From Deltaproteobacteria bacterium (lineage in GTDB: Bacteria; Myxococcota; Myxococcia; Myxococcales; 40CM-4-68-19): a stretch of DNA of 42,130 bases. Every line of letters begins with the position of its first letter. Within the stretch, counting starts at the first letter, position 1. Where the stretch lies: assembly GCA_005879535.1 (NCBI GenBank), contig VBKI01000032.1, forward strand, positions 1-42,130, read 5' to 3'. The notes under the pieces are model-generated. The model searched no databases and was not told where the DNA came from. It worked only from the letters and a program-made list of their open reading frames with translations. The position numbers and the translations under genes were made by a program. Below, one piece after another: positions 2,197-17,378 of this stretch.

Positions 2197-3444
2197 CTAG
2201 CGCCCCGCCCGCTTCTCGTTGCCTGCGATGAACGGGCTCCACGGCTGGGCGCGGATCGGTTTGTCCGTCTTCCAGACCACGTCGAACTGCCCGTTGCCCT
2301 GCACCTCGCCGATGAACACCGGCTTCCACAGGTGGTGGTTCGTCTCGTCCATCTTCAGCGTGAACCCGGAGGGCGCCACGAACGTCTGGCCGGCCATCGC
2401 CTTGCGGACGTCGTCGACCTTGACGCTGCCGGCCTTCTGCGCCGCCTGCGCCCACATGTGCATGCCGACGTAGGTGGCTTCCATCGGGTCGTTGGTCACG
2501 CGCGAATCGCCGCCGGGAAGCCCGTTCTTCTTCACGTATGCCTTCCACATCTTGATGAACTCGGCATTCGTCTTGTTCTTGAGAGACATGAAGTAGTTCC
2601 AGGCCGCGAGGTGGCCGACCAGCGGCTTGGTGTCGATGCCGCGCAGCTCCTCTTCACCGACGGAGAACGCGACCACCGGGATGTCGGTGGCCTTGAGCCC
2701 CTGGTTGCCGAGCTCCTTGTAGAAGGGCACGTTGGAGTCGCCGTTGATGGTGGAAATCACCGCCGTGTGTCCGCCGGCGCCGAACGCTTTGATCTGTGCG
2801 ACGATCGTCTGGTAGTCGCTGTGGCCGAACGGCGTGTACGTCTCCAGGATGTCGCTCTCCGGGATTTTCTTCGACTTCAGGAAGGCCCGGAGGATCTTGT
2901 TCGTGGTGCGCGGGTAGACGTAGTCGGTGCCGAGCAGGAAGAAGCGCGTCGCGCCGCCGCCTTCCTTGGACATCAGGTATTCCACCGCGGGGATCGCCTG
3001 CTGGTTCGGCGCCGCGCCCGTGTAGAAGACGTTCTGCGACAGCTCCTCGCCCTCGTACTGGACAGGATAGAAGAGGAGCCCGTTCAGCTCCTCGAACACC
3101 GGCAGCACGGACTTGCGCGAGACCGACGTCCAGCAGCCGAACACCGCCGCCACGTTGTCCTTGGTCAGCAGCTGGCGCGCCTTCTCCGCGAACAGCGGCC
3201 AGTTCGAGGCGGGATCGACGATCACTGGCTCCAGCTTCTTGCCGAGCACGCCTCCTTTGGCGTTGATCTCGTCGATGGTCATCAGCGCGACGTCCTTGAG
3301 CGACGTCTCGCTGATCGCCATCGTTCCCGACAGCGAATGCAGAATGCCGACCTTGATGGTCTCCGCGGCGCGAGCCGGCGGCGCGCCGAAGAGGACGGCG
3401 CAGAGAACGGACGACAGCATGAAGATGAGCTTCCGGGTGTACAT
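2197..3444 (-). CDS. urtA: Urea ABC transporter substrate-binding protein UrtA
   Basis: Periplasmic urea-binding protein, 415 residues, of the branched-chain amino acid/amide binding family. A classical signal peptide ends in PPARA-AE near residue 26. The mature part opens TIKVGILHSLSGTMAISE and continues with family-typical segments such as AVFGCWTSVSRKSVLPVFEE, LLFYPVQYEGEE and DPMEATYVGMHMWAQA. The start at 3444 was chosen because it gives the signal peptide and has an AGGAG at 3456-3460; the frame stays open upstream, but that stretch has no signal peptide and covers the promoter region. First gene of the operon urtA-porin-urtB. A sigma-54-like element at 3489-3504 fits nitrogen control of urea uptake. 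Confidence 0.95.
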   Translation of the reverse strand: MYTRKLIFMLSSVLCAVLFGAPPARAAETIKVGILHSLSGTMAISETSLKDVALMTIDEINAKGGVLGKKLEPVIVDPASNWPLFAEKARQLLTKDNVAAVFGCWTSVSRKSVLPVFEELNGLLFYPVQYEGEELSQNVFYTGAAPNQQAIPAVEYLMSKEGGGATRFFLLGTDYVYPRTTNKILRAFLKSKKIPESDILETYTPFGHSDYQTIVAQIKAFGAGGHTAVISTINGDSNVPFYKELGNQGLKATDIPVVAFSVGEEELRGIDTKPLVGHLAAWNYFMSLKNKTNAEFIKMWKAYVKKNGLPGGDSRVTNDPMEATYVGMHMWAQAAQKAGSVKVDDVRKAMAGQTFVAPSGFTLKMDETNHHLWKPVFIGEVQGNGQFDVVWKTDKPIRAQPWSPFIAGNEKRAGR

Positions 3445-3488
3445 GGGTTGGGGTTCTCCTCGGCCCGGTCGGACCTGCGCCCGGTCAG

Positions 3489-3504
3489 TGCAACAGCGGG
3501 ACCA
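3489..3504 (-). promoter_or_regulatory. Sigma-54-like -24/-12 element upstream of urtA
   Basis: On the minus strand the sequence reads TGGTCCCGCTGTTGCA. It has the invariant GG and GC with exactly 10 bases between them, and the -12 part TTGCA is a perfect match. Transcription would begin near 3478, about 34 bases before the urtA ATG. Nitrogen-limitation control of urea uptake commonly uses sigma-54, so the placement makes sense. GG-N10-GC is common by chance in GC-rich DNA, so this remains a prediction. Confidence 0.45.
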
Positions 3505-3567
3505 CTTGCCGCGGCGCGGCGACGGCTGCCCTTCATTCGTGCGAGCCGCCGAAGCTGGAGAAGTCGC

Positions 3568-3731
3568 CCGACGAAATCGTCGGATGCATGGGTCCGCGAC
3601 GACAAAAACGTCGCGCGCGTCCTCGACAAACCGTGCGTCGGTCCGCGCGCGATGGTTCACGGTCGTGCAGTTGGCCGGGCGAACGGCTGACGTTTTCGTG
3701 GTTTCCCGGTGGGCGACCGACGAATTCGTCG
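3568..3731. repeat. Cluster of CGACGA-type palindromes upstream of urtA
   Basis: Three inverted repeats sit in the 293-base gap between urtA and the kinase remnant. 3568-3583 has arms CCGACGA/TCGTCGG around AA. 3595-3615 has arms CGCGACG/CGTCGCG around seven bases. 3718-3731 is the perfect palindrome CGACGAATTCGTCG. The first and last are each followed, in opposite orientations and 21-22 bases further in, by AAACGTC, so the whole stretch looks like an imperfect inverted duplication. Relative to the predicted urtA start the first two lie at about -90 and -120 to -135, where upstream activator sites of sigma-54 promoters usually are. They could equally be REP-like extragenic repeats. Confidence 0.55.
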
Positions 3732-3737
3732 CTTGCG

Positions 3738-4322
3738 CTATGTAAACCCAGGGGCGAGCATGCGGTTGAAGCTCTCGGGACTGCGGATTCCCTGACGCGC
3801 CATCCACGTGTCCGCGGCCGCGATGCGAGCGGCACCGGCCTCACCGCCGGACAACTCGCCGTGGCGGCGTCGCGCGACGGCGGCGTAGAGCGCCATGTCG
3901 ACGGTATCGAACTCGCTCGCGGCCCGTTCGAGGAGGATGAGAGCCCGCTCCGGCTGGCCACGAAGGGCTGCGATCCCGGCGCGGAGCAACTCGCCCGCCG
4001 GCCTGAACGCGGCGATGGGATCGCTCATCAGCTCGCGCGCAGCCCGATCCGCGACGTTCAGGAGAGCACTTCTCGCGGCCCGATCGCGTGCATCCGCCAC
4101 CGCCGCGAGCGCGCTGGCGCCGCGGACGTGCACCATCTGTGACCGCACGACGCGCACGCGACCCAGCATCGATTGTTCGAACGCTGGCCAGGCCGCGTCG
4201 ACGCGCGCCCAGGCGGCGTGGCCGTCGCCCTCATAGCGGTCGACGAACGCCTCGCCGAGCAACAGGAGCATGTGCTGGATGTCGAAGCCGCCGGTCACCC
4301 ACTGCTCTCGAGCGAGCCGCAC
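3738..4322 (-). pseudogene. C-terminal remnant of kinase-AAA-repeat protein
   Basis: This frame (about 194 residues) matches the expected C-terminal end of the large kinase-AAA-repeat proteins of Myxococcota: an opening like REQWVTGGFDIQHMLLLLGE, alanine-rich helical repeats, MALYAAVARRRHGELSGGE, and the ending DTWMARQGIRSPESFNRMLA. It lies directly behind the kinase/AAA part (4231-5580) but in another reading frame; the switch is at about 4323. The middle of the normal protein, several hundred residues of ATPase core and helical repeats, is absent. It is therefore read as the 3' end of one gene that suffered an out-of-frame deletion. A start at GTG 4322 is formally possible, but I see no ribosome-binding site for an independent gene. 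Confidence 0.75.
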
Positions 4323-5580
4323 TTCGGCGTCGCAGCTCCTGGGGGTCCGGAATCTCGACGGCGGGTCTGGACGCGGTCGCCACCGCCGGGGCCTGCCGCA
4401 GCACGGGGAACAGGCGCACCAGGGAATGGATGTCGCTCGGCAGCAGCACTTCAGCCTGGTCCCCCAGACGCCGCAATCGCTGCGAGAGCGAATCGATCAC
4501 GCTGTCGAGCGCCTTGTAGGGGACGGATTCGCGCTCGTAGCAGCGGCCGGCCAGCACGGTTGCCCGAGGGTCCGCCCGAATGCGGCCGAGGAAGCGATCG
4601 ACCAGCGTCGTCTTGCCCATGCCCGAACGACCCTGGACGAGGACGGTCACGGGCGTGCCTTCGCGCGCTCGTGCTTGCGCGGCTTCCAGCGCCTCGAGCT
4701 GGGACTGCCGCCCAAGGAAGACCGGTGCAGGCCCCTGCGCGGGCATGCCGGTCGGGACGTGGGCACTTCGCAACCGTCGCAACACTTCCGAGCCCTTCGG
4801 CCGCTCGTCGGGGTTCCGATGGACGAGCGCGGTCGCAAGCTCGGCGAGATCCTCCGGAATGCCGTCGCGACGCAACGGAGGCGCCTCTCGCCGGATCTTT
4901 GCGTCGAGCACCTCGATCACCGTGCCCTCGAAGGGCAGCCGCCCGGCGAGGATGTCGTAAAGCATCGCGCCCACGCTGTACCAATCGCAGGCCGGGCCCA
5001 ACTCCGCGCCGCCGGCTTGCTCCGGTGACATGTACGGCGGCGTTCCGCCCATCGGATCGAGGATCGAATCGCCTGCCGACGCGGACCGCCGGGCGCTCAC
5101 CAGACCGAAGTCGAGGAGGACGACCCGGCCTCGGCTATCCACCATCACGTTCGACGGCTTGATGTCCCGGTGCAGGCGTCCAGTCGCGTGGAGGGCTTCG
5201 ACGCCGAGCGCGAGCTGCCGGAACGCGTCGCGCAGCCGGTCGACGTCGCCATTGGCGATCCAACGCCGGAAATCGACGCCCTCCAACAGCTCCATGGTGC
5301 AGAACCAGCGGTCTTCGTCCGAGATGAGCTCGTAGAGGGTGACGAGGTTCGGGTGCGAGACGTTGGCGAACGAGCGGAACTCGTGCTTGAACCGGTATAG
5401 CCCCGCCGGATCGAACCGCTGCAGCGTCTTCAGCGCGACGTCGCGGCCCTGGGCGAGATCGCGGGCGCGATAGACCACACCCATCGGTCCCGCGCCGAGC
5501 CGCGAGAGGACCTGGAACCGCGCGTTGCCGCCGAAGTCTCCGGGGTCCACGGAGTCACCCTGAGGAAGGGCGCGCATCAT
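4231..5580 (-). CDS. Ser/Thr protein kinase with truncated AAA domain (gene broken downstream)
   Basis: A Hanks-type kinase domain fills residues 22-275: glycine loop LGAGPMGVVY, Lys51 in VALK, HRDIKPSN at 137-144, DFG at 157-159, and MSPEQ in the activation segment. All catalytic elements are present. An AAA/NACHT-like ATPase domain starts near 286 (FLGRQSQLEALE) with Walker A GRSGMGKTT at 317-325. The family-like sequence stops at DPQELRRR (residue 419), then the frame runs about 30 residues of junk to a stop at 4231. The family's C-terminal end resumes in another frame (3738-4322), so a large internal segment was deleted. A truncated but catalytically competent kinase could still be made. 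Start at ATG 5580 (ATG 5577 is next) is uncertain because no clear ribosome-binding site is visible. Confidence 0.82.
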   Translation of the reverse strand: MMRALPQGDSVDPGDFGGNARFQVLSRLGAGPMGVVYRARDLAQGRDVALKTLQRFDPAGLYRFKHEFRSFANVSHPNLVTLYELISDEDRWFCTMELLEGVDFRRWIANGDVDRLRDAFRQLALGVEALHATGRLHRDIKPSNVMVDSRGRVVLLDFGLVSARRSASAGDSILDPMGGTPPYMSPEQAGGAELGPACDWYSVGAMLYDILAGRLPFEGTVIEVLDAKIRREAPPLRRDGIPEDLAELATALVHRNPDERPKGSEVLRRLRSAHVPTGMPAQGPAPVFLGRQSQLEALEAAQARAREGTPVTVLVQGRSGMGKTTLVDRFLGRIRADPRATVLAGRCYERESVPYKALDSVIDSLSQRLRRLGDQAEVLLPSDIHSLVRLFPVLRQAPAVATASRPAVEIPDPQELRRRSAARSRAVGDRRLRHPAHAPVARRGVRRPL

Positions 5581-5609
5581 ACTGAATCTATGCAGCTGTG
5601 CTGGAAGGT

Positions 5610-5625
5610 TGCGACGATCCTGCCA
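5610..5625 (-). promoter_or_regulatory. Possible sigma-54-like element upstream of the kinase gene
   Basis: Minus strand reads TGGCAGGATCGTCGCA: TGGCA at the -24 position, then GCA with the correct 10-base GG-to-GC spacing, though the -12 TTGC core is only TCGC. Transcription would start near 5599, about 19 bases before the kinase ATG. A perfect CGACGAATTCGTCG palindrome lies just upstream (5642-5655), the same motif found upstream of urtA. This is weaker than the urtA element and could be chance. Confidence 0.3.
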
Positions 5626-5639
5626 TTTCGACCGAGGGA

Positions 5640-5657
5640 AGCGACGAATTCGTCGGA
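5640..5657. repeat. 18-bp palindromic sequence, inverted copy of 3715-3732
   Basis: AAGCGACGAATTCGTCGG contains the perfect 14-bp palindrome CGACGAATTCGTCG at 5642-5655. The same 18 bases occur on the opposite strand near 3716-3733, so the two copies bracket the broken kinase gene in inverted orientation about 1.9 kb apart. It may be an operator for a regulator acting on both the kinase and urtA promoters, or an extragenic repeat that took part in rearrangement. The sequence alone does not decide. Confidence 0.55.
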
Positions 5658-5712
5658 ACGGCGGCCCGGATGTGAAGATTGGGTGAACCGGGGCCCATCC
5701 CTGCGAACGCAT

Positions 5713-5742
5713 TTGACAAACCGCGGCAAGGGGCGCTACCCA
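5713..5742 (+). promoter_or_regulatory. Predicted promoter of the ilv-leu operon
   Basis: A perfect -35 TTGACA lies at 5713-5718. The best -10 candidate is TACCCA at 5737-5742, 18 bases downstream, which is weak against TATAAT but resembles the TAnnnT pattern of other likely promoters here (16697-16702, 19754-19759). Transcription would begin around 5748-5750, immediately before the ATG at 5751, so the leader peptide might be translated from a nearly leaderless transcript. An AAGGGG at 5728-5733 would serve ATG 5742 if transcription starts further upstream. Confidence 0.45.
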
Positions 5743-5876
5743 TGTGCGCCATGAAATCCCGGCTCCCGCGCGCCGCCGTCCTCTTCGCTTCCGCGCCGGA
5801 GCTTCGCTCCTCGCTCCTTCTTGGCGTCGTCGGACTGCTTCCGCTCATTAGCAGCGGGTGCGGGCCGCCGTCCTGA
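5742..5876 (+). CDS. Leader peptide of the ilv-leu operon attenuator
   Basis: A 44-residue peptide (41 from the second ATG at 5751) whose second half is packed with the amino acids made by the operon: SLLLGVVGLLPLIS, containing six Leu, two Val and one Ile. Over its whole length it has nine Leu codons, four of them CTT, and an ATT for Ile. CTT and ATT are uncommon in neighbouring genes, which would sharpen ribosome stalling. The stop codon (5874-5876) lies 27 bases before an intrinsic terminator. Stalling at the Leu/Val/Ile codons leaves 5855-5864 free to pair with the terminator's first arm; normal translation covers it. This is the classic leader-peptide design known from enterobacterial ilv and leu operons. 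AAGGGG at 5728-5733 favours ATG 5742. Confidence 0.8.
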   Translation: MCAMKSRLPRAAVLFASAPELRSSLLLGVVGLLPLISSGCGPPS

Positions 5877-5939
5877 CCGAGGAAGATTTCCGGAAGGAAC
5901 CTGGCCCCCGCACCCGACCCGGTGCGGGGGCTTTTTTTT
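5855..5939 (+). terminator. Attenuator: intrinsic terminator with competing antiterminator
   Basis: Terminator: GCCCCCGCACC (5904-5914), a 6-base loop, GGTGCGGGGGC (5921-5931), then eight T (5932-5939); the 11-bp stem is perfect. Antiterminator: CGGGTGCGGG at 5855-5864, inside the leader-peptide coding region, is exactly complementary over 10 bases to CCCGCACCCG at 5907-5916, so the two structures exclude each other. A small hairpin CCGCT (5841-5845)/AGCGG (5853-5857) could act as the pause/protector stem. The terminator ends 15 bases before the ilvB start, and no gene upstream on this strand needs ending here, so its role must be regulatory. Confidence 0.85.
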
Positions 5940-5954: not shown

Positions 5955-7703
5955 ATGTCGTCGCAGCCCGCAGTTGCACAGCAGAGCCGAAGCCCCGACG
6001 CCGAACCGGTCCAGAGGACGGGCGCGCAGATGGTCTGGGAAGTTCTCGTGCGCGAAGGCGTCGACGTCGTCTTCGGGTACCCGGGCGGCGCGATCATGCC
6101 GACCTACGACGCGATGCCGGCCTATCCCATCCGGCACGTCCTGGTCCGGCACGAGCAGGGCGCCGCCCACATGGCCGACGGCTATGCCCGGGCGTCGGGC
6201 AAAGTCGGAGTGGCGATCGCCACCTCCGGACCGGGCGCGACGAACCTCGTCACCGGCATCGCGACGGCGATGATGGATTCCTCTCCCATCGTCTGCATCA
6301 CGGGGCAGGTGCCTTCGACGGTCTTGGGCAGCGACGCCTTCCAGGAGACGGACATCACCGGCATCACGCTGCCGATCACCAAGCACAACTACCTGGTCAC
6401 GCGCGCCGAGGACGTCGCCCCCACCCTCCGCGAGGCCTTCTTCATCGCCCGCTCCGGCCGGCCGGGTCCGGTGCTGGTGGACATCACCAAGGACGCGCAG
6501 CAGGGAGTGGCGCGCCTCGACGCGCGGTTGCCGACGCGGGCGGCGCGCAGCCGCCCGATTCCGACGCCGACTTCCGACGCCATCGCCCGGGCAGCCTTGT
6601 TGATCGACGCGGCCGAGCGGCCCCTGATCCTCGCGGGCCAGGGCGTTCTGGCGTCGGGATCGACGGCGCTCTTGCGCGAGTTTGCCGAGAAGACCGGCGT
6701 TCCGGTGACCGCCACGCTGCTCGGCCTCGGAGGCTTCCCGGCATCGCATCCGCTCAGCCTGGGCATGATGGGGATGCACGGTGAAGCCTGGGTGAACACG
6801 TCGATCCAGGAAGCAGATCTCTTGGTCGCGCTGGGGATGCGCTTCGACGACCGGGTCACCGGCAAGCTGCAGACGTACGCGGTGAACGCGAAGAAGATCC
6901 ACGCGGAGATCGACCCCAGCGAGATCAACAAGAACGTCCGGGTGGACGTCGCCCTGCCGGGAGACCTGCGGCGGACGTTGGAGGCGCTGCTTCCGGTCGT
7001 ACAGGCGCGAACGCGCAAGCCCTGGCTGGATCGCATCGCGGCCCGGCGGAGCGAAGCGGCCCGCCGCGACGTGCAGTCGGTTCCCTCGGGCGGGAAGCTC
7101 TTCGCCGCCCACGTGCTGCACGATCTCTGGCGCTTGACGGAAGGCAAGGCGCTGGTCGTGACCGACGTCGGCCAGCACCAGATGTGGGAGGCGCAGTACT
7201 ACAAGCACGAGCGACCCCGGTCGCTGATCACCTCGGGCGGCCTCGGCACGATGGGGTTCGCGCTTCCCGCGGCGATGGGCGCGCGCTTTGCCCGACCGGA
7301 CGACGAGATCTGGGTAGTGGCGGGCGACGGCGGGTTCCAGATGACCGCCTGCGAGCTGATCACCTGCGCGCAGGAAGGCCTGAAGCTCAACATCGCCATC
7401 GTCAACAACGGCTATCTGGGGATGGTCCGACAGTGGCAGGAGTTCTTCTACAACCGCCGGTACGTCGCCACGCCGCTGCGCAGCCCCGACTTCGTGATGC
7501 TGGCTCAGGCGCACGGTTTGCCGGGACTCCGCGTCACGCGCAGGGAGGAGATCCCTCAGGCCGTCGAGCGGGCCCGGGCCGAGGCGGGCTCGGTGGTGGT
7601 CGAGTTCCGCGTCGAGCAGGAAGACTCGGTGTACCCGATGGTGCCGGCCAACACCGACCTGCGCGAGATGATCCGGCGACCCGCATTCGCCGAGGAGGAG
7701 TGA
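5955..7703 (+). CDS. ilvB: Acetolactate synthase large (catalytic) subunit
   Basis: Catalyses the first common step of valine, leucine and isoleucine synthesis, joining pyruvate to pyruvate or 2-oxobutyrate with ThDP, Mg and FAD. It is 582 residues, the family length. The N-terminal ThDP domain has VFGYPGGAIMP and RHEQGAAHMADGYARASG, which carries the catalytic Glu. The middle FAD-binding region follows, and the C-terminal ThDP/Mg site is GDGGFQMTACEL...NNGYLGMVRQWQ. Start at ATG 5955 with GAGG at 5946-5949; the in-frame GTG at 5922 lies inside the attenuator stem and is rejected. The stop overlaps the ilvN ATG as TGATG. Controlled by the upstream attenuator. Confidence 0.97.
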   Translation: MSSQPAVAQQSRSPDAEPVQRTGAQMVWEVLVREGVDVVFGYPGGAIMPTYDAMPAYPIRHVLVRHEQGAAHMADGYARASGKVGVAIATSGPGATNLVTGIATAMMDSSPIVCITGQVPSTVLGSDAFQETDITGITLPITKHNYLVTRAEDVAPTLREAFFIARSGRPGPVLVDITKDAQQGVARLDARLPTRAARSRPIPTPTSDAIARAALLIDAAERPLILAGQGVLASGSTALLREFAEKTGVPVTATLLGLGGFPASHPLSLGMMGMHGEAWVNTSIQEADLLVALGMRFDDRVTGKLQTYAVNAKKIHAEIDPSEINKNVRVDVALPGDLRRTLEALLPVVQARTRKPWLDRIAARRSEAARRDVQSVPSGGKLFAAHVLHDLWRLTEGKALVVTDVGQHQMWEAQYYKHERPRSLITSGGLGTMGFALPAAMGARFARPDDEIWVVAGDGGFQMTACELITCAQEGLKLNIAIVNNGYLGMVRQWQEFFYNRRYVATPLRSPDFVMLAQAHGLPGLRVTRREEIPQAVERARAEAGSVVVEFRVEQEDSVYPMVPANTDLREMIRRPAFAEEE

Positions 7704-8272
7704 TGCCGCACGACTCCGCGTTTTCCATTCCCAGTGGCCGGAGGACGGCGCAGACGCTCATCGTCTACGTCGAAGATCAGCCCGGGACCCTCAACCGCAT
7801 CGTCTCGCTGTTCCGGCGGCGCGGGTTCAACATCGAGTCGCTCACGGTCGGCCGCTCCGAACGGGAAGGCATCTCCCGCATCACCGTGGTGGTGCGTGCG
7901 GACGACGAGACCGCCCGGCGGCTGGAGGCGAACCTCTACAAGCTCGTCAACGTGCTTTCGGTCGAAGACGTGACCCACGCGCCGTCGGTCACGCGCGAGA
8001 TGGCGTTCGTGAAGGTGCGCGCCGCGCAGAACCGGCGCCCCGAGTTGCTTCAGCTCGTGCAGACCTTCCGCGCCCGTGTGGTGGACCTCGGTCCCGAGTC
8101 GGTGATCGTCGAGACCACCGGGACGCAGGAGAAGCTCGACGGGCTCGTCGAGGTGCTGCGCCCCTTCGGGATCCTCGAGCTGGTGCGCACTGGAGCGGTG
8201 GCGATGCAGCGAGGACCGGGGGGCGGCGCGCAGGACGAAGCGTCCGAATCGGATGACGGGGTAGCCGCATGA
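7703..8272 (+). CDS. ilvN: Acetolactate synthase small (regulatory) subunit
   Basis: Regulatory partner of IlvB that normally confers valine feedback inhibition and stimulates the catalytic subunit. It is 189 residues. An ACT domain begins near residue 18 (TLIVYVEDQPGTLNRIVSLF, RRRGFNIESLTVGRSE), followed by the usual second half ending near FGILELVRTG. A short acidic/Gly tail follows. ATG 7703 overlaps the ilvB stop, and AGGAGGAG just upstream is a strong ribosome-binding site. The frame ends at 8272, overlapping a possible ATG (8269) of leuA. Confidence 0.95.
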   Translation: MPHDSAFSIPSGRRTAQTLIVYVEDQPGTLNRIVSLFRRRGFNIESLTVGRSEREGISRITVVVRADDETARRLEANLYKLVNVLSVEDVTHAPSVTREMAFVKVRAAQNRRPELLQLVQTFRARVVDLGPESVIVETTGTQEKLDGLVEVLRPFGILELVRTGAVAMQRGPGGGAQDEASESDDGVAA

Positions 8273-8301
8273 CTTTCAAACCAGAAGCAGGAGCGACGCG
8301 G

Positions 8302-9885
8302 ATGAACAGGAACGGGAACGAGACGAGCGACCGGGTGATCGTGTTCGACACCACCCTGCGCGACGGTGAGCAGGCCCCAGGCGGGAGCATGAACCTCTCG
8401 CAGAAGATGCAGGTGGCGAAGGCTCTCGCGGCGCTCGGCGTGGACGTGATGGAAGTCGGATTTCCCGTCGCGTCGCCAGGCGATTTCCAGGCCGTGGAAG
8501 CGATCTCCCGGCAAGTGGAGGGCCCCGTCATCTGCGCGCTCGCGCGCGCGCACCGGCCGGACATCGACGCCGTCCTCAAGGCGCTGGCGCCCGCGTCGCG
8601 CCGTCGGGTCCACGTCTTCCTCGCCACGAGCCCGATCCACCGCGAGCACAAGCTGCGGATGACGCAAGCGGAAGTGGTCCGCGTCGCCACCGGCGCCATC
8701 GAGTACGCGCGCGAGCGCTGCGACGACGTGGAGTTCTCCGCCGAGGACGCGGCACGCACGGAGCCGGACTTCCTCGTCGAAGTGGTGGAGCGCGCCATCG
8801 AGGCGGGCGCCACGACCATCAACATCCCCGACACCGTCGGGTACGCGGTGCCTTCGCACTTCGCCGCCATCATCGAGAACCTGCGCGCCAAGGTCCGCGG
8901 CATCGACCGCGTGGTGCTCAGCGTCCACTGCCATGACGATCTCGGCATGGCGGTAGCCAACAGCCTGGCGGCGCTCCAGGCGGGGGCGCGGCAGGTGGAG
9001 TGCACCGTCAACGGGATCGGCGAGCGCGCCGGGAACTGTTCGCTCGAGGAAGTGGTGATGGCGCTGCGCACGCGCCACGACTTCTTCGGCCTGCGCACGG
9101 GCATCCGTACGCAGCAGCTCTGCTCGGCGAGCCGGGTGGTGGCGGGAGCGACGGGATTCCACGTCGCGCGCAACAAGGCGGTGGTCGGGCAGAACGCCTT
9201 CGCCCACGAATCCGGCATCCACCAGCACGGGATGATCAACCACCAGCAGACGTACGAGGTGATGCGGCCCGAGGACGTCGGCTTCAAGAGCAGCAACCTC
9301 GTGCTCGGCAAGCACAGCGGCCGCCATGCGCTGAACGCGCGGCTGCACGATCTCGGCTACCAGCTCGAGCCGGAGCAGATCGACAAGGTATTCGAGGAGC
9401 TGAAGCGGCTCGCGGACAAGAAGAAGGAGATCTACGACGGCGACCTCGACGCGCTGCTCGTCGGCCTCTTCCAGAACGGGACGGCGCGCCGCTGGGAGCT
9501 GGCGAGCCTCAACGCGGTCAGCGGCACCGGCACGCCTCCCACTGCCGCCGTGTCGCTCCTCACCCGCGACGGGCGGAAGCTCGACGAGGCGGCCACCGGC
9601 GACGGTCCGGTCGACGCCGTCTTCAAGTGCATCGAGCGCATCACCGGCGTGAAAGCGCGTCTGCGCGACTTCACCATCGCGAGCGTCAGCGCCGGCGAGG
9701 ATGCGCAGGGTGAAGTGATCGTCGTCGTCGAGCACGAGGGCCGCACCTATCGCGGGCGCGGCCTGAGCACCGACATCGTCCTCGCCAGCGCCGAGGCCTA
9801 CCTGGAGGTGGTGAACCGAATCTCCGCGGGCCGCCTGCAGCGCAAGACGCCCCCCGAGCCCGAGGTGGTGTGTGGCGCAGTCTGA
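8302..9885 (+). CDS. leuA: 2-isopropylmalate synthase
   Basis: Commits 2-oxoisovalerate to leucine by condensing it with acetyl-CoA. The protein has 527 residues from ATG 8302. The TIM-barrel catalytic domain shows [15 protein letters not shown] at the start, the metal-binding [17 protein letters not shown] (HxH), and [15 protein letters not shown]. The C-terminal half holds the linker ([21 protein letters not shown]) and an allosteric region from about 390, probably sensing leucine. The start was chosen for GCAGGAG ending eight bases before 8302; the alternative ATG 8269 overlaps the ilvN stop as ATGA and adds 11 residues. Its 3' end overlaps leuC by 14 bases. Confidence 0.95.
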
Positions 9886-11302
9886 GCCGCGCACGCTCTT
9901 CGGCAAGCTCTGGGACGCGCACCTCGTCCGTCCGGAGACGGACGAGGCGCCAGCGGTCTTGTACGTCGATCTCCACCTCGTGCACGAGGTGACCTCGCCG
10001 CAGGCATTCTCGGTGCTGCGCGAGCGCGGCATCGGCGTGAGACGTCCCGGCCGGACGCTCGCGACCATGGATCACTCGACGCCGACCACGCCGCGTCCGC
10101 GGGGCACGAAGCTGGTCATCGAGGACCGCGACTGCGCGGCGCAGCTTGGCGCGCTGGAGGCGAACTGCGCGCAGTTCGGCGTCGAGCTGCACTCGCTCTC
10201 CAGCGAGCAGCAGGGCATCGTGCACGTCATCGGGCCGGAGCTGGGTCTGACGCAGCCGGGGATGACCATCGTCTGCGGCGACAGCCATACCAGCACGCAC
10301 GGGGCCTTCGGCGCCTTTGCTTTCGGGATCGGCACCAGCGAAGTGGCGCACGTGCTGGCCACGCAATGCCTGCTGCAACGGCGGCCGCGAACGCTGCAAG
10401 TGCGGGTCGAAGGCCGGCCGCGGCCGGGTGTCACCGCGAAGGATCTCATCCTCTCGATCATCGGCCGCATCGGCATCGCCGGCGGCACCGGCCACGTCAT
10501 CGAGTACACCGGAAGCGCCATCCGGGCGCTCTCGATGGAAGAGCGGATGACGGTGTGCAACATGTCCATCGAGGCCGGAGCCCGCGCCGGCTGCATCGCG
10601 CCCGACGACGTCACGTTCCAGTACCTGGCCGGGCGGCCGCGGGCGCCGCAGGGCCCGGACTGGGATCGCGCGCTCACTCGCTGGCTGACGCTACCCGGCG
10701 ATCCGGGAGCGATCTATGATCGCACGGTCGAGATCGACGGCAGCGCCGTCGAGCCGACCATCACTTTTGGAACGAATCCGGGAATGTCCGTCCCGATTCG
10801 CGGCGAGGTGCCGGATCCGGGGTCCGCCACTGACGCCGCGAATCGGGCGGCATTGGATCGGGCGCTCCGCTACATGGGCCTGCGGCCGGGACAGCCGCTG
10901 ATCGGCCATCCTATCGACGTCGTCTTCATCGGAAGCTGCACCAACGCGCGCCTCGAGGATCTCCGCGCTGCGGCATCGGTTCTGCGAGGAAGGAAGGTGG
11001 CGGCAGGGGTCCGCGCGCTGGTGGTGCCCGGATCCCGGCAGGTGAAGAAGGCGGCCGAGGCAGAGGGCCTGGATCGCGTTTTTCGCGATGCCGGTGCGGA
11101 GTGGCGCGAGCCCGGGTGCTCGATGTGCATCGGGATGAACGGCGATCAGGTCGGGCGGGGACAGTCCGCCGTCAGTACCAGCAACCGCAATTTCGAAGGG
11201 CGCCAGGGTCCCGGTGCGCGGACTTTCCTCGCCAGCCCACTGACCGCCGCAGCGGCTGCGATTGCCGGCGCCATCGCCGACCCGCGGGAGCTTCTGCGAT
11301 GA
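9872..11302 (+). CDS. leuC: 3-isopropylmalate dehydratase large subunit
   Basis: Aconitase-family subunit that, with LeuD, isomerises 2- to 3-isopropylmalate on a [4Fe-4S] cluster. It is 476 residues with [27 protein letters not shown], the first cluster Cys in [13 protein letters not shown] and the other two in [10 protein letters not shown], then [19 protein letters not shown]. All ligands are present. It starts with GTG 9872 inside the end of leuA, preceded by CCGAGGTGGT. The LeuC-then-LeuD gene order with an ATGA overlap suggests stoichiometric synthesis. Confidence 0.96.
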
Positions 11303-11880
11303 CGGCGCTGCAACCCTTCCGCAAGCTCGACTCCCGGACCGCCGTTCTTGCCCGCGCCGACATCGACACCGACCAGATCATTCCGGCGCGCTATCTCAAG
11401 GGCACCACGCGCGCCGGCCTTGGCCGCTGGCTCTTTGCTGGCTGGAGGTACGACGAACAGGGCCGTCCGAGGGCAGACTTCCCGCTCTCGCGGCCCGAGG
11501 CCCACGGCGCGCAGGTGCTGGTCGCCGGAGCGAATTTCGGCTGCGGGTCATCGCGCGAGCACGCTCCCTGGGCGCTGCTCGATTACGGCTTCCGCGCCGT
11601 GGTCAGCTCGTCCATCGCCGACATCTTCCGCGGCAACGCGCTCAAGAACGGGCTCCTGCCGGTGATCGTCGATCCGGCGACGCACGAGATCCTGCTCGCG
11701 TCGCCGGGGGTGCGCGTCAGCATCGATCTCGAGTCGTGCACGCTCGCGTTCGGCGACGCCCGCGTCAGCTTCGCCATCGACCCCTTTTCCCGCCGCTGCC
11801 TGCTCCAGGGCGTCGACGAGCTCGGGTACCTTCTCGAGCAGGAAGACGCGATCGCCGCATACGAGAAGGAGCAAGGATGA
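11299..11880 (+). CDS. leuD: 3-isopropylmalate dehydratase small subunit
   Basis: Swivel-domain partner of LeuC, 193 residues. Typical landmarks are [17 protein letters not shown] near the N-terminus, [17 protein letters not shown] and [18 protein letters not shown]. The ATG overlaps the leuC stop, and the stop overlaps the leuB ATG, both as ATGA. Nothing unusual is seen. Confidence 0.96.
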
Positions 11881-12952
11881 GGGCGCTAATCGCGGTCTTG
11901 CCGGGCGACGGCGTCGGTCCGGAAGTGACAGCGGAAGCGGTACGCGTCCTCACCGCGGTGGGCGAGCTGTACGGGCACGCATTCGATCTTCGCGAGGCAA
12001 CCGTCGGGGGAGTCGCCATCGAGCGAACGGGTGTACCGCTGCCGGACGAGACCGCCGCTCTCTGCCGCGGCGCCGACGCCGTCCTGCTGGGCGCCGTCGG
12101 CGGACCGCGGTGGGGCCCTTCATCGCCGGTCCGGCCGGAGCAGGGACTGCTCGAGCTGCGGCGCGCGCTCGGCGTGTTCGCGAACTTGAGGCCTGCCTCG
12201 CCGCATCCGCGCGTCGTTGCGGCGTCGCCGCTGAAGCCGGCGGTGCTGCGCGGGGTGGACGTGCTGATCGTCCGCGAGCTGACGGGCGGAATCTACTTCG
12301 GCGAGAAGCGCCGCGAGGCGGCCTGGGCCGAGGACCACTGCACCTACAGCGAGGACGAGATCGCGCGCGTCGTCCGCGTCGCAGCGCGGCTTGCGCAGTC
12401 GCGCCGCGGCCGGCTGACGTCGGTCGACAAGGCGAACGTGCTCGAGACTTCCCGGCTGTGGCGCGAGGTGACGACGCGCATCGTCCAGGAGGAGTATCCC
12501 CGGATCAGCCTGGAGCACCAGCTCGTGGACTCCTGCGCGCTCCGCCTCGTGCAGCGGCCAGCGGACTTCGACGTCATCGTCACCGAGAACCTGTTCGGCG
12601 ACATCCTCACCGATCTCACCGCCGTGCTCGGCGGCTCGATCGGGATGCTGCCCTCGGCATCGCTCGGAGAGCGCGGACCAGGACTGTACGAGCCGGTGCA
12701 CGGCTCGGCGCCCGACATCGCCGGCCGTGGGCTTGCGAATCCCTACGGAGCGATCGGGAGCGTCTCGCTGCTGCTCCGCCACTCCTTGCATCTCGAGGAC
12801 GAGGCCGCCGCGGTCGACGCCGCCATCGGCGCCGCGCTGGAGACCGGGGCGCTCACCGCCGACGTGGCCGACCGGGACGATCGCACCTGCAAGACTGTCG
12901 AGGTGGGCGATGCCGTCGTCCACGCGCTGTCGCGGCACAAGGAGTCACGCTG

Positions 12953-12953
<1 letters not shown>
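11877..12953 (+). CDS. leuB: 3-isopropylmalate dehydrogenase
   Basis: NAD-dependent oxidative decarboxylase completing 2-oxoisocaproate formation, 358 residues. The motifs are [18 protein letters not shown] at the N-terminus, [31 protein letters not shown] (catalytic Lys), [11 protein letters not shown] (metal-binding Asp), and [18 protein letters not shown] with the NAD-binding segment. A ribosome-binding site AAGGAG precedes the ATG, which overlaps the leuD stop. The stop overlaps ilvD as TGATG. Confidence 0.96.
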
Positions 12954-15674
<2,721 letters not shown>

Positions 15675-15688
15675 GAGCCGGAGGCAGG

Positions 15689-16669
15689 GTGGAACGCGTC
15701 CAGAGTACGGAGCTCGAAGGCCGGTCGACCGCCGGATCCAGAGGAACGACGGCGGCCGGTCCTCCGCGCATGTGGCTGAACGGCAAGCTCGTCTCGCCTT
15801 CGGAGGCGCGGTTGGACTTCCTCACGCCCGCGCTCCACTACGGAGTGGCGGCCTTCGAGGGGATCCGCTGTTACCGCACGGCGCGAGGGCCGGCCATCTT
15901 CAGGCTCGAGGAGCACGTCGAGCGGCTGATCCATTCGGCGCGCGTCCTCGGCTGGCGCGAGCTGCCGTTCGGTCTGGAGGAGCTGACCGCAGGCTGCACG
16001 GACGTGGTCCGCGCGAGCGGATTCGAGGAGTGCTACATCCGCCCTCTGATCTGGCTCGCGGAAGGCGGCTGGAACCTGACGGTCGACGGCGGCAAGGCGT
16101 ACGCGGGCATCGCCGTCTGGGAGTGGAAGGCGTATCTGGGGGCAGAGGCGCTGGAGCAGGGCGTTCGCGCCAACGTCTCCACCTTTACCCGTCACCACCC
16201 GAACGTGATGATGACCAAGGCGAAGATCAGCGGGAACTATCCCAACTCGGTGCTGGCGAAGACCGAGTCGCTGCGCCTCGGATTCGACGAGGCGATCATG
16301 CTCGATGCGCAGGGCATGGTGGCGGAGTGCACCGGCGAGAACATCTTCGTGGTGCGCCGCGGGCGCCTGGTCACGCCGCCTCCCGGGGCCATCCTGGAGG
16401 GCATCACCCGCGACTCGATCATGACGCTGGCGCGCGATCTGGGCCACGAAGTTGTCGAGCAGCCGGTCTCCCGCGACCAGCTCTACATCGCCGACGAGGT
16501 CTTCGTGACCGGGACCGCGGCGGAGGTGATCGGGCTGCGGGAGATCGACTTTCGTCCGATCGGCTCCGGCCGCGGAACGCCCGTCACGCGGGCGCTGCAG
16601 CAGGCGTACCACGCGGTGGTGCGTGGAGAGCATCCCCGCTCTGCGTCCTGGCTCACGTTCGTGAGCTGA
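15689..16669 (+). CDS. ilvE: Branched-chain amino acid aminotransferase
   Basis: PLP enzyme performing the last transamination to Val, Leu and Ile. From GTG 15689 it has 326 residues; from ATG 15770 it would have 299. Fold-type IV features are ALHYGVAAFEGIRCYRT, the PLP lysine in TKAKISGNYPNSVLAK, DEAIMLDAQGMVAECTGENIF, and GAILEGITRDSIM. GGAGG at 15680-15684 supports the GTG start, although spacing is short (4 bases). The extra N-terminal 27 residues are Gly/Ser/Thr-rich and not conserved in the family, so the ATG start remains possible. Last gene of the operon, 14 bases after ilvC. Confidence 0.93.
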   Translation: MERVQSTELEGRSTAGSRGTTAAGPPRMWLNGKLVSPSEARLDFLTPALHYGVAAFEGIRCYRTARGPAIFRLEEHVERLIHSARVLGWRELPFGLEELTAGCTDVVRASGFEECYIRPLIWLAEGGWNLTVDGGKAYAGIAVWEWKAYLGAEALEQGVRANVSTFTRHHPNVMMTKAKISGNYPNSVLAKTESLRLGFDEAIMLDAQGMVAECTGENIFVVRRGRLVTPPPGAILEGITRDSIMTLARDLGHEVVEQPVSRDQLYIADEVFVTGTAAEVIGLREIDFRPIGSGRGTPVTRALQQAYHAVVRGEHPRSASWLTFVS

Positions 16670-16709: not shown

Positions 16710-16727
16710 CCGTTTCCGGAGGTGCTC

Positions 16728-17378
16728 ATGCGGTACGCGACGCTGCTCCTGATCCTCGCTTGCGGCTGCGCCACTACGACGTCCACGACGGGTGCGCCAT
16801 CGGGCGGCACCGCCGGCGGAGCGGACGCCGGCACCGTCTCGTCCGACGCGGGCATGTTCGGAACTTTCGACGCGGGCGGAATGTACGGCGATGCTGGCGC
16901 GATGGGCGCGCCGGACGCCGGGATGCCGGGCACGACGCCGTCGGTGCTGACGGCGAGGCTCGAGCCGCGCAGCAGCAGCAACGTGTCGGGCATCGCGCGT
17001 GTCACTCCGGGAGGATCCGGCGTCGTGGTCCTGGTGGAGGTGCAGAATGCCACGCCCGGCGAGCACGGGGTGCACATCCACGAGAACGGCGATTGCAGCG
17101 ACCCTGCTGCCCAGAACGCCGGCCCTCACTTCAATCCCAAGTCGGCGGCGCACCACGGCGGCGCGAACACGCCAGTCCGCCACGGCGGCGACCTCGGGAA
17201 CATGAAGGTCAGCTCCAGCGGCCGCGGCCTGCTGGCCGTGACCGTGTCCGACCTGACGATGGACAATGCATCCGGCCGCGCGGTGGTCGTCCACGAGAAG
17301 GCGGACGATCTGCAGTCGGATCCGGCAGGCAACTCTGGAAATCGCATCGCCTGCGGCGTGCTCCAGGCCGGCCAGTAA
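16728..17378 (+). CDS. sodC: Cu/Zn superoxide dismutase, lipoprotein form
   Basis: Converts superoxide to hydrogen peroxide outside the cytoplasm. It has 216 residues. The N-terminus MRYATLLLILAC is a lipoprotein signal with the lipidated Cys at 12. A linker of about 55 residues rich in Ala, Gly and Asp (DAG repeats) tethers the catalytic domain. Metal ligands are visible in HGVHIHENGDC (Cu His pair), PHFNPKSAAHHGG (bridging and Zn His), HGGDLGN (Zn Asp) and VVHEKADDL (Cu His). The start uses GGAGG at 16718-16722, five bases before ATG. It is likely a single gene with its own promoter, perhaps protecting surface Fe-S or lipid targets. Confidence 0.93.
   Translation: MRYATLLLILACGCATTTSTTGAPSGGTAGGADAGTVSSDAGMFGTFDAGGMYGDAGAMGAPDAGMPGTTPSVLTARLEPRSSSNVSGIARVTPGGSGVVVLVEVQNATPGEHGVHIHENGDCSDPAAQNAGPHFNPKSAAHHGGANTPVRHGGDLGNMKVSSSGRGLLAVTVSDLTMDNASGRAVVVHEKADDLQSDPAGNSGNRIACGVLQAGQ

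Follow-up and report, generated by a model that had tools for sequence, protein, structure and literature searches.

The leader region and the operon downstream

The window (the whole stretch of 42,130 nucleotides analyzed) harbors an operon of nine genes, ilvB-N, leuA-C-D-B, and ilvD-C-E, and NCBIfam assignments of all nine confirm the originally predicted nine-gene operon. The gene 5' of the leader is divergent. Features of the leader and operon, all on the plus strand, are as follows.

5713-5718, plus, -35 hexamer TTGACA
5737-5743, plus, putative -10-like element TACCCAT, read by eye, 18 nt past the -35 hexamer
5751-5876, plus, leader peptide ORF, 41 codons and a stop, probably leaderless, with ATG 5742 as an alternative start
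5814-5849, plus, putative regulatory Leu/Val/Ile codon run (CTC CTT CTT GGC GTC GTC GGA CTG CTT CCG CTC ATT), rich in rare CTT
5854-5871, plus, candidate antiterminator strand (region 2), with core GGGTGCGGG at 5856-5864, within the last codons of the ORF
5904-5914, plus, terminator 5' arm (region 3), GCCCCCGCACC, able to pair with region 2 or region 4
5921-5931, plus, terminator 3' arm (region 4), GGTGCGGGGGC
5932-5939, plus, T8 tract of the intrinsic terminator
5955-7703, plus, ilvB, acetolactate synthase large subunit (TIGR00118), start ATG 5955
7700-8272, plus, ilvN (TIGR00119)
8269-9885, plus, leuA (TIGR00973)
9872-11302, plus, leuC (TIGR00170)
11299-11880, plus, leuD (TIGR00171)
11877-12953, plus, leuB (TIGR00169)
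12950-14713, plus, ilvD (TIGR00110)
14691-15674, plus, ilvC (TIGR00465)
15671-16669, plus, ilvE (TIGR01122)

The leader ORF encodes MKSRLPRAAVLFASAPELRSSLLLGVVGLLPLISSGCGPPS* and has 41 codons when read from ATG 5751 or 44 when read from the in-frame ATG 5742. Its composition is unusual, as a stretch of 17 residues contains 10 Leu, Ile, or Val residues, and only 4 of the 204 short ORFs (30 to 60 amino acids) in the window reach at least 9. The terminator stem, with 11 perfect base pairs and a 6-nt loop, is followed by T8 and is the sole perfect 11-bp hairpin with at least 7 T after it in the 42-kb window. Within the ORF, 5855-5864 (CGGGTGCGGG) is the exact reverse complement of 5907-5916 (CCCGCACCCG); a perfect 10-nt complement occurs anywhere in the ORF in 0.1% of dinucleotide shuffles (p about 0.001) and within its last 26 nt in 0.025%. 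A peptide of 41 to 44 residues ending just before the terminator, the 11-bp stem with eight T, the 10-base complementarity, and the nine leucine codons, four of them CTT, had all been predicted, and each coordinate and count was reproduced exactly. Between the stop codon and the terminator, TTTCCGGAAGGAAC (5880-5902) is kept in close relatives and is able to fold into a small hairpin within the loop of the antiterminator.

Other genes surround the operon. The divergent gene (4231-5712, minus) encodes a Ser/Thr kinase with a partial AAA_16 domain; the AAA match ends early and the frame may run on in the ORF at 3738-4322, so a frameshift is possible. At 2197-3807 (minus) lies a gene for a periplasmic binding protein (Peripla_BP_5) that may belong to a urea or amide ABC system, and, judged by eye, the ORF after ilvE (16722-17378, plus) resembles a Cu/Zn superoxide dismutase whose start is lipoprotein-like.

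Conservation of the leader RNA

The sample of the window's family comprised 12 genomes, 6 of which carry this ilvB gene, and in all six the leader lies immediately 5' of it (family and gene names of relatives, here and below, rest partly on gene sequence). A search with the antiterminator pattern returned one match per genome, at ilvB, in those six; the remaining six genomes, several of them incomplete, have no close ilvB. Same-order relatives with ilvB in other gene orders (e.g., L007, L008, L009, and L021) have no leader directly upstream. The six family peptides (MKSRLPRAAVLFASAPELRSSLLLGVVGLLPLISSGCGPPS, MTSQPKASSFTTAPRAALSLLVLVGLLPLITVGCGPPV, MAHRTTSANCPSAAASSLVLSIISIGLLATGCGPPF, MTQRPATFCNDSSSAAGLVSISLIGLILVVLRDGCGPPF, MTLRAATVSPFAERAQLSLSILIVVLLTAGCGPPF, and MNRSPRSSNDAFPAAAGALSLSLSILGLLSAGCGPPF) share the invariant end GCGPP, which corresponds to the antiterminator strand GGG TGC GGG CCN CCN and is always followed by one further codon and then the stop. 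In every case CTT or ATT, encoding Leu or Ile, starts nine bases before GGG TGC.

Codon usage in these leaders departs from that in the operon. CTT makes up 17 of the 37 Leu codons in the six leaders versus 5% in the operon genes (p = 7e-11), and ATT makes up 8 of the 11 Ile codons versus 6% (p = 2e-7), whereas CTG, the operon's choice for 45% of its Leu codons, appears once. A tRNA-Leu(GAG), which would read CTC and CTT, is present in the genome. Leucine had been proposed as the main signal, but this dominance is local: the shares of Leu, Val, and Ile vary among members, some of which are dominated by Val, and this varying balance indicates that the switch probably senses all three amino acids together.

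The hydrophobic run and the Cys residue might instead be features of a protein, with the ORF encoding a functional small membrane peptide or lipoprotein, and a hydrophobic run followed by ..GC is indeed seen in the window family. However, the residue at -3 before the Cys is S, T, A, R, T, and S in the six peptides, so there is no lipobox ([LVI][ASTVI][GAS]C), and in Polyangia members, where this RNA is translated in a different frame, there is no Cys at that place. Rare synonymous codons are enriched, and the third base of GGG is fixed solely in the antiterminator, which also argues against selection on the peptide and makes this explanation extremely unlikely.

It is the RNA that is kept across lineages. 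The core GGGTGCGG is retained while the frames differ, being read as GGG TGC GGG (Gly-Cys-Gly) in the window family and as GGT GCG (Gly-Ala) in Polyangia-type leaders. Seven core positions are paired in at least 19 of 20 leaders. The comparison of relatives suggested in the original prediction thus recovered the peptide, the runs of branched-chain amino acid (BCAA) codons, and the competing pairing in all six family members, but covariation within the conserved 9-nt core was limited. There are two informative changes: a G-C pair is replaced by A-U in L094, and strand 2 follows a strand 3 change in L082. In both leaders, a C-to-T change in strand 3 is matched in strand 2 while the terminator keeps a mere G-U at that position, which suggests that the pairing of strand 2 with strand 3 is selected in its own right. 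Myxococcaceae-like and threonine leaders (see below) have wholly different strands that are nevertheless complementary. Of 32 leaders, 24 have an antiterminator duplex that outperforms dinucleotide shuffles (P < 0.05); the energies of the other 8 were not below those of shuffles at this level because the sequences are very GC rich. In most leaders the antiterminator begins 14 to 21 nt before the stop codon; in a marine group (L068, L079, L082, and L087) the strand lies just past it.

The promoter region is conserved as well. The TTGACA hexamer is found in 6/6 family members, 38 to 39 nt 5' of the start codon, and by eye a TAnnnnT element follows it in 6/6 at a spacing of 17 to 18 nt and lies 7 to 8 nt before the ATG; formal promoter prediction returned no match for the leader promoter. 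Across the phylum, the start codon lies 35 to 43 nt, mostly 38 to 39 nt, from the first base of the -35 box in 23 leaders, threonine leaders among them, with spacing measured to TTGA[CT]. Shine-Dalgarno pairing is weak at the leaders (median of -3.1 kcal/mol versus -6.6 kcal/mol for operon genes). This spacing, together with the weak Shine-Dalgarno pairing, suggests that the leader mRNA is leaderless, the ORF being translated without an upstream 5' leader. Exceptions are the Myxococcaceae-like ilvB and leuA leaders, which do not have the leaderless spacing. Homologs and promoter spacing favor ATG 5751 over ATG 5742, but AAGGGG is located 9 nt 5' of ATG 5742, and translation may therefore begin there from a Shine-Dalgarno-led start, giving the 44-amino-acid peptide.

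A putative ribosome-controlled switch

The region combines a BCAA-rich short ORF, an intrinsic terminator before the first gene, and an antiterminator that excludes the terminator and is predicted to be governed by the ribosome. Since promoter spacing, BCAA run, antiterminator, stop position, and terminator are all conserved, the locus very probably (we would put it at about 90%) carries a leader-peptide transcription attenuator that serves the entire ilvBN-leuACDB-ilvDCE operon, as judged from comparative sequence analysis.

According to this model, transcription would begin at ATG 5751 or no more than a few bases from it, and the ribosome would load on the 5' end. A shortage of charged Leu, Val, or Ile tRNA would make the ribosome stall in the Leu/Val/Ile run, so that GCGGGTGCGGGCC just ahead of it would stay free and could pair with the newly made first arm of the terminator, and this 2:3 pairing would let RNA polymerase read through. 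With an ample supply of all three amino acids, the ribosome would go on to the stop codon and cover the core, and the terminator would then form before ilvB, presumably ending transcription. The geometry is consistent with such a sequence of events, as the core starts 18 nt upstream of the stop codon. The established ribosome footprint extends about 15 nt from the P site in the 5' direction and 12 nt from the start of the A-site codon in the 3' direction, and with a footprint of this size a ribosome at the stop codon should cover strand 2 in both layouts, whether the strand lies before or just past the stop.

Equilibrium folding was uninformative as a test of the switch, as the terminator wins at nearly all stall sites, and for full-length RNA of the window it is favored at every one. 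Because the terminator is more stable at full length, the choice must be kinetic, and equilibrium folding was replaced by folds of the transcript ending at arm 3. In these folds, the 2:3 pairing forms in 14/14 leaders, for most stall sites, with the ribosome on the BCAA codons and in 0/14 with the ribosome at the stop codon.

The presence of the terminator in the equilibrium fold of the full leader would equally fit a constitutive terminator, or one belonging to the upstream region, with the short ORF being incidental. Against this, many genomes conserve the ORF together with its codon run, antiterminator, and stop position, and the divergent orientation of the upstream gene (4231-5712, minus) leaves nothing there needing termination; we regard this explanation as very unlikely. 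The sensor might also be something other than a ribosome, such as a T-box, a riboswitch, or an RNA-binding protein, with the ORF as a by-product. T-boxes, ppGpp riboswitches, and other RNA elements are known to precede BCAA genes in other phyla. ppGpp riboswitches in this position have been described (PMC10272879). However, a search of 4,227 Rfam families at the gathering score gave no match, either in the window or among 18 loci of relatives, and if transcription starts near 5750 there is no room for an aptamer 5' of the ORF. A non-ribosome sensor is thus exceedingly improbable here, and attenuation by a translating ribosome is the reading we retain.

The original prediction had attributed to this locus the full enterobacterial logic of stalling and antitermination. 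The codon run and the antiterminator are indeed conserved, but three aspects differ: there is no conserved 1:2 hairpin, strand 2 would be covered directly by a ribosome at the stop, and a 5' leader is probably missing from the mRNA. A 1:2 (protector or pause) hairpin reached P < 0.05 in just 4 of 24 leaders, the window's among them (P = 0.04). Such a hairpin is typical of trp-type attenuators and is not needed for the mechanism.

Distribution and relation to known attenuators

A scan of 110 loci for terminators and short ORFs 5' of ilvB yielded further Myxococcota leaders (L044, L045, L051, L058, L068, L079, L081, L082, L085, L087, L094, and L103). A covariance model (R1), built from 12 Myxococcota leaders and searched against 195 genomes of the phylum, gave strong matches before ilvB in three further genomes and also in a different Myxococcota family (L126 and L139), where a leader of this type precedes ilvC. 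Sorangium cellulosum So0157-2 and So ceGT47 have one strong match each (61 bits), about 600 nt 5' of ilvB; a short ORF lies between leader and ilvB, and in Sorangium (L031 and L033, about 2400-2980) it has about 150 codons. Moderate matches were obtained in Myxococcaceae-like genomes, before ilvB and, separately, before leuA, with peptides ending in GAGPPF. The leuA leaders (L128, L130, and L134), with Leu CTT runs and the GAGPPF end, resemble the ilvB leaders of the same family (L127, L129, L132, and L133). Two weaker matches (L136 and L145) are threonine leaders before aspartokinase genes, STTTTTTHTTTRGARAV and similar, with the same layout; these leaders, from two genomes of the same order, contain a threonine run, a terminator, and an antiterminator within the ORF and are probably leaderless with a GTG start. 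At E values up to 0.01 the model matched 71 genomes, not all of them real, as weak matches include plain terminators; three (L131, L135, and L140) were rejected as chance terminators because they have no BCAA context. Taken together, these matches indicate an attenuator that is common to many Myxococcota, including cultured Sorangium. No convincing match was detected in the Chloroflexota and Acidobacteriota genomes searched. One Verrucomicrobiota locus (L200) has a BCAA leader, MNSSVALIALITVVLAIVATDPNTHGRLAKATSS, and a terminator before ilvD, with TTGACA about 40 nt before the ATG; its sequence is unlike the Myxococcota class.

Attenuation through BCAA-rich upstream ORFs is documented for Escherichia coli and Corynebacterium and has been proposed for other bacteria (PMC10272879, PMC11857589, and PMC1262725). 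The closest counterpart is E. coli ilvL, the attenuator of ilvXGMEDA, which likewise has a multivalent BCAA leader peptide. The antiterminator core GTGCGGG is common to ilvL and the Myxococcota leaders, and the terminators of ilvL (ACCCCCGCACCGAAAGGTCCGGGGGT) and Sorangium (GCCCCCGCACCGAGAAGGTCCGGGGGC) are nearly identical, with the same C-C mismatch. The covariance model, trained without ilvL, matches it at 35.7 bits (E = 1.5e-9 in a search space of 6.6 kb) but scores only 17 bits for ivbL and 12 bits for leuL, so that the similarity of antiterminator and terminator sequences to ilvL is beyond chance for the 6.6 kb searched. On the other hand, the ilvL ORF has a longer 5' leader, its best antiterminator stretch lies farther from the stop (-32 to -13), and it controls ilvXGMEDA rather than ilvBN-leuACDB-ilvDCE. 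Rfam family RF02744 covers the ilvL 5' region, and at the gathering score it did not match the window.

Common descent of the Myxococcota leader and ilvL is plausible from these likenesses, but the likeness may also reflect convergence, as both are functionally constrained and the ilvL match comes from a search of 6.6 kb. We tentatively speculate, at somewhat less than even odds, that the gammaproteobacterial ilvL and the Myxococcota attenuators derive from one ancestral switch that kept GTGCGGG...CCCCCGCACC...GGTCCGGGGG while the sequence, frame, and amino-acid balance of its peptide drifted and the switch moved between ilvB, ilvC, and leuA.

Other systems are similar in logic or layout. E. 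coli ivbL (ilvBN) and leuL (leuABCD) share the logic and the target genes of the window attenuator but differ in terminator and antiterminator sequences. The Corynebacterium glutamicum ilvBNC attenuator (ilvB-II motif) also has a BCAA-rich upstream ORF, a terminator, and an antiterminator before ilvB, and it has been discussed as a leaderless mRNA (PMC10272879 and PMC11857589); its peptide is usually 15 to 17 amino acids, and the published model includes a third, anti-antiterminator hairpin. In the Rfam search, which covers Corynebacterium ilvB-II, ilvB-OMG, T-box, and other leaders to the extent that Rfam models them, the window had no match at the gathering score. For leaderless leader peptides, a precedent is Sinorhizobium meliloti trpL, whose RNA 5' end is the leader ATG (PMC7298713); it responds to Trp and encodes a 14-amino-acid peptide.

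The original prediction held that ilv and leu control is little described in this lineage, and in line with this we found no description of attenuation in Myxococcus or deltaproteobacteria in the literature searched; the comparative surveys of Vitreschak et al. and Lopatovskaya et al. (2004 and 2010), cited in PMC10272879, may list some cases. The leaders form a widespread, probable attenuator class of Myxococcota that has no Rfam family and no description for the phylum in that literature. Its design is compact: the ORF is probably leaderless, and its own last codons supply the antiterminator. In the window, the nine genes that serve three amino acids seem to be under the control of a single leader. 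Overall, BCAA biosynthesis in Myxococcota, and in Myxococcaceae also threonine-pathway biosynthesis, is probably under ribosome-mediated attenuation. The window organism is uncultured and myxobacterium-like, and Sorangium cellulosum is a cultured host that carries the leader; the match to ilvL, in turn, means that the age of a classic regulatory RNA can be put to the test.
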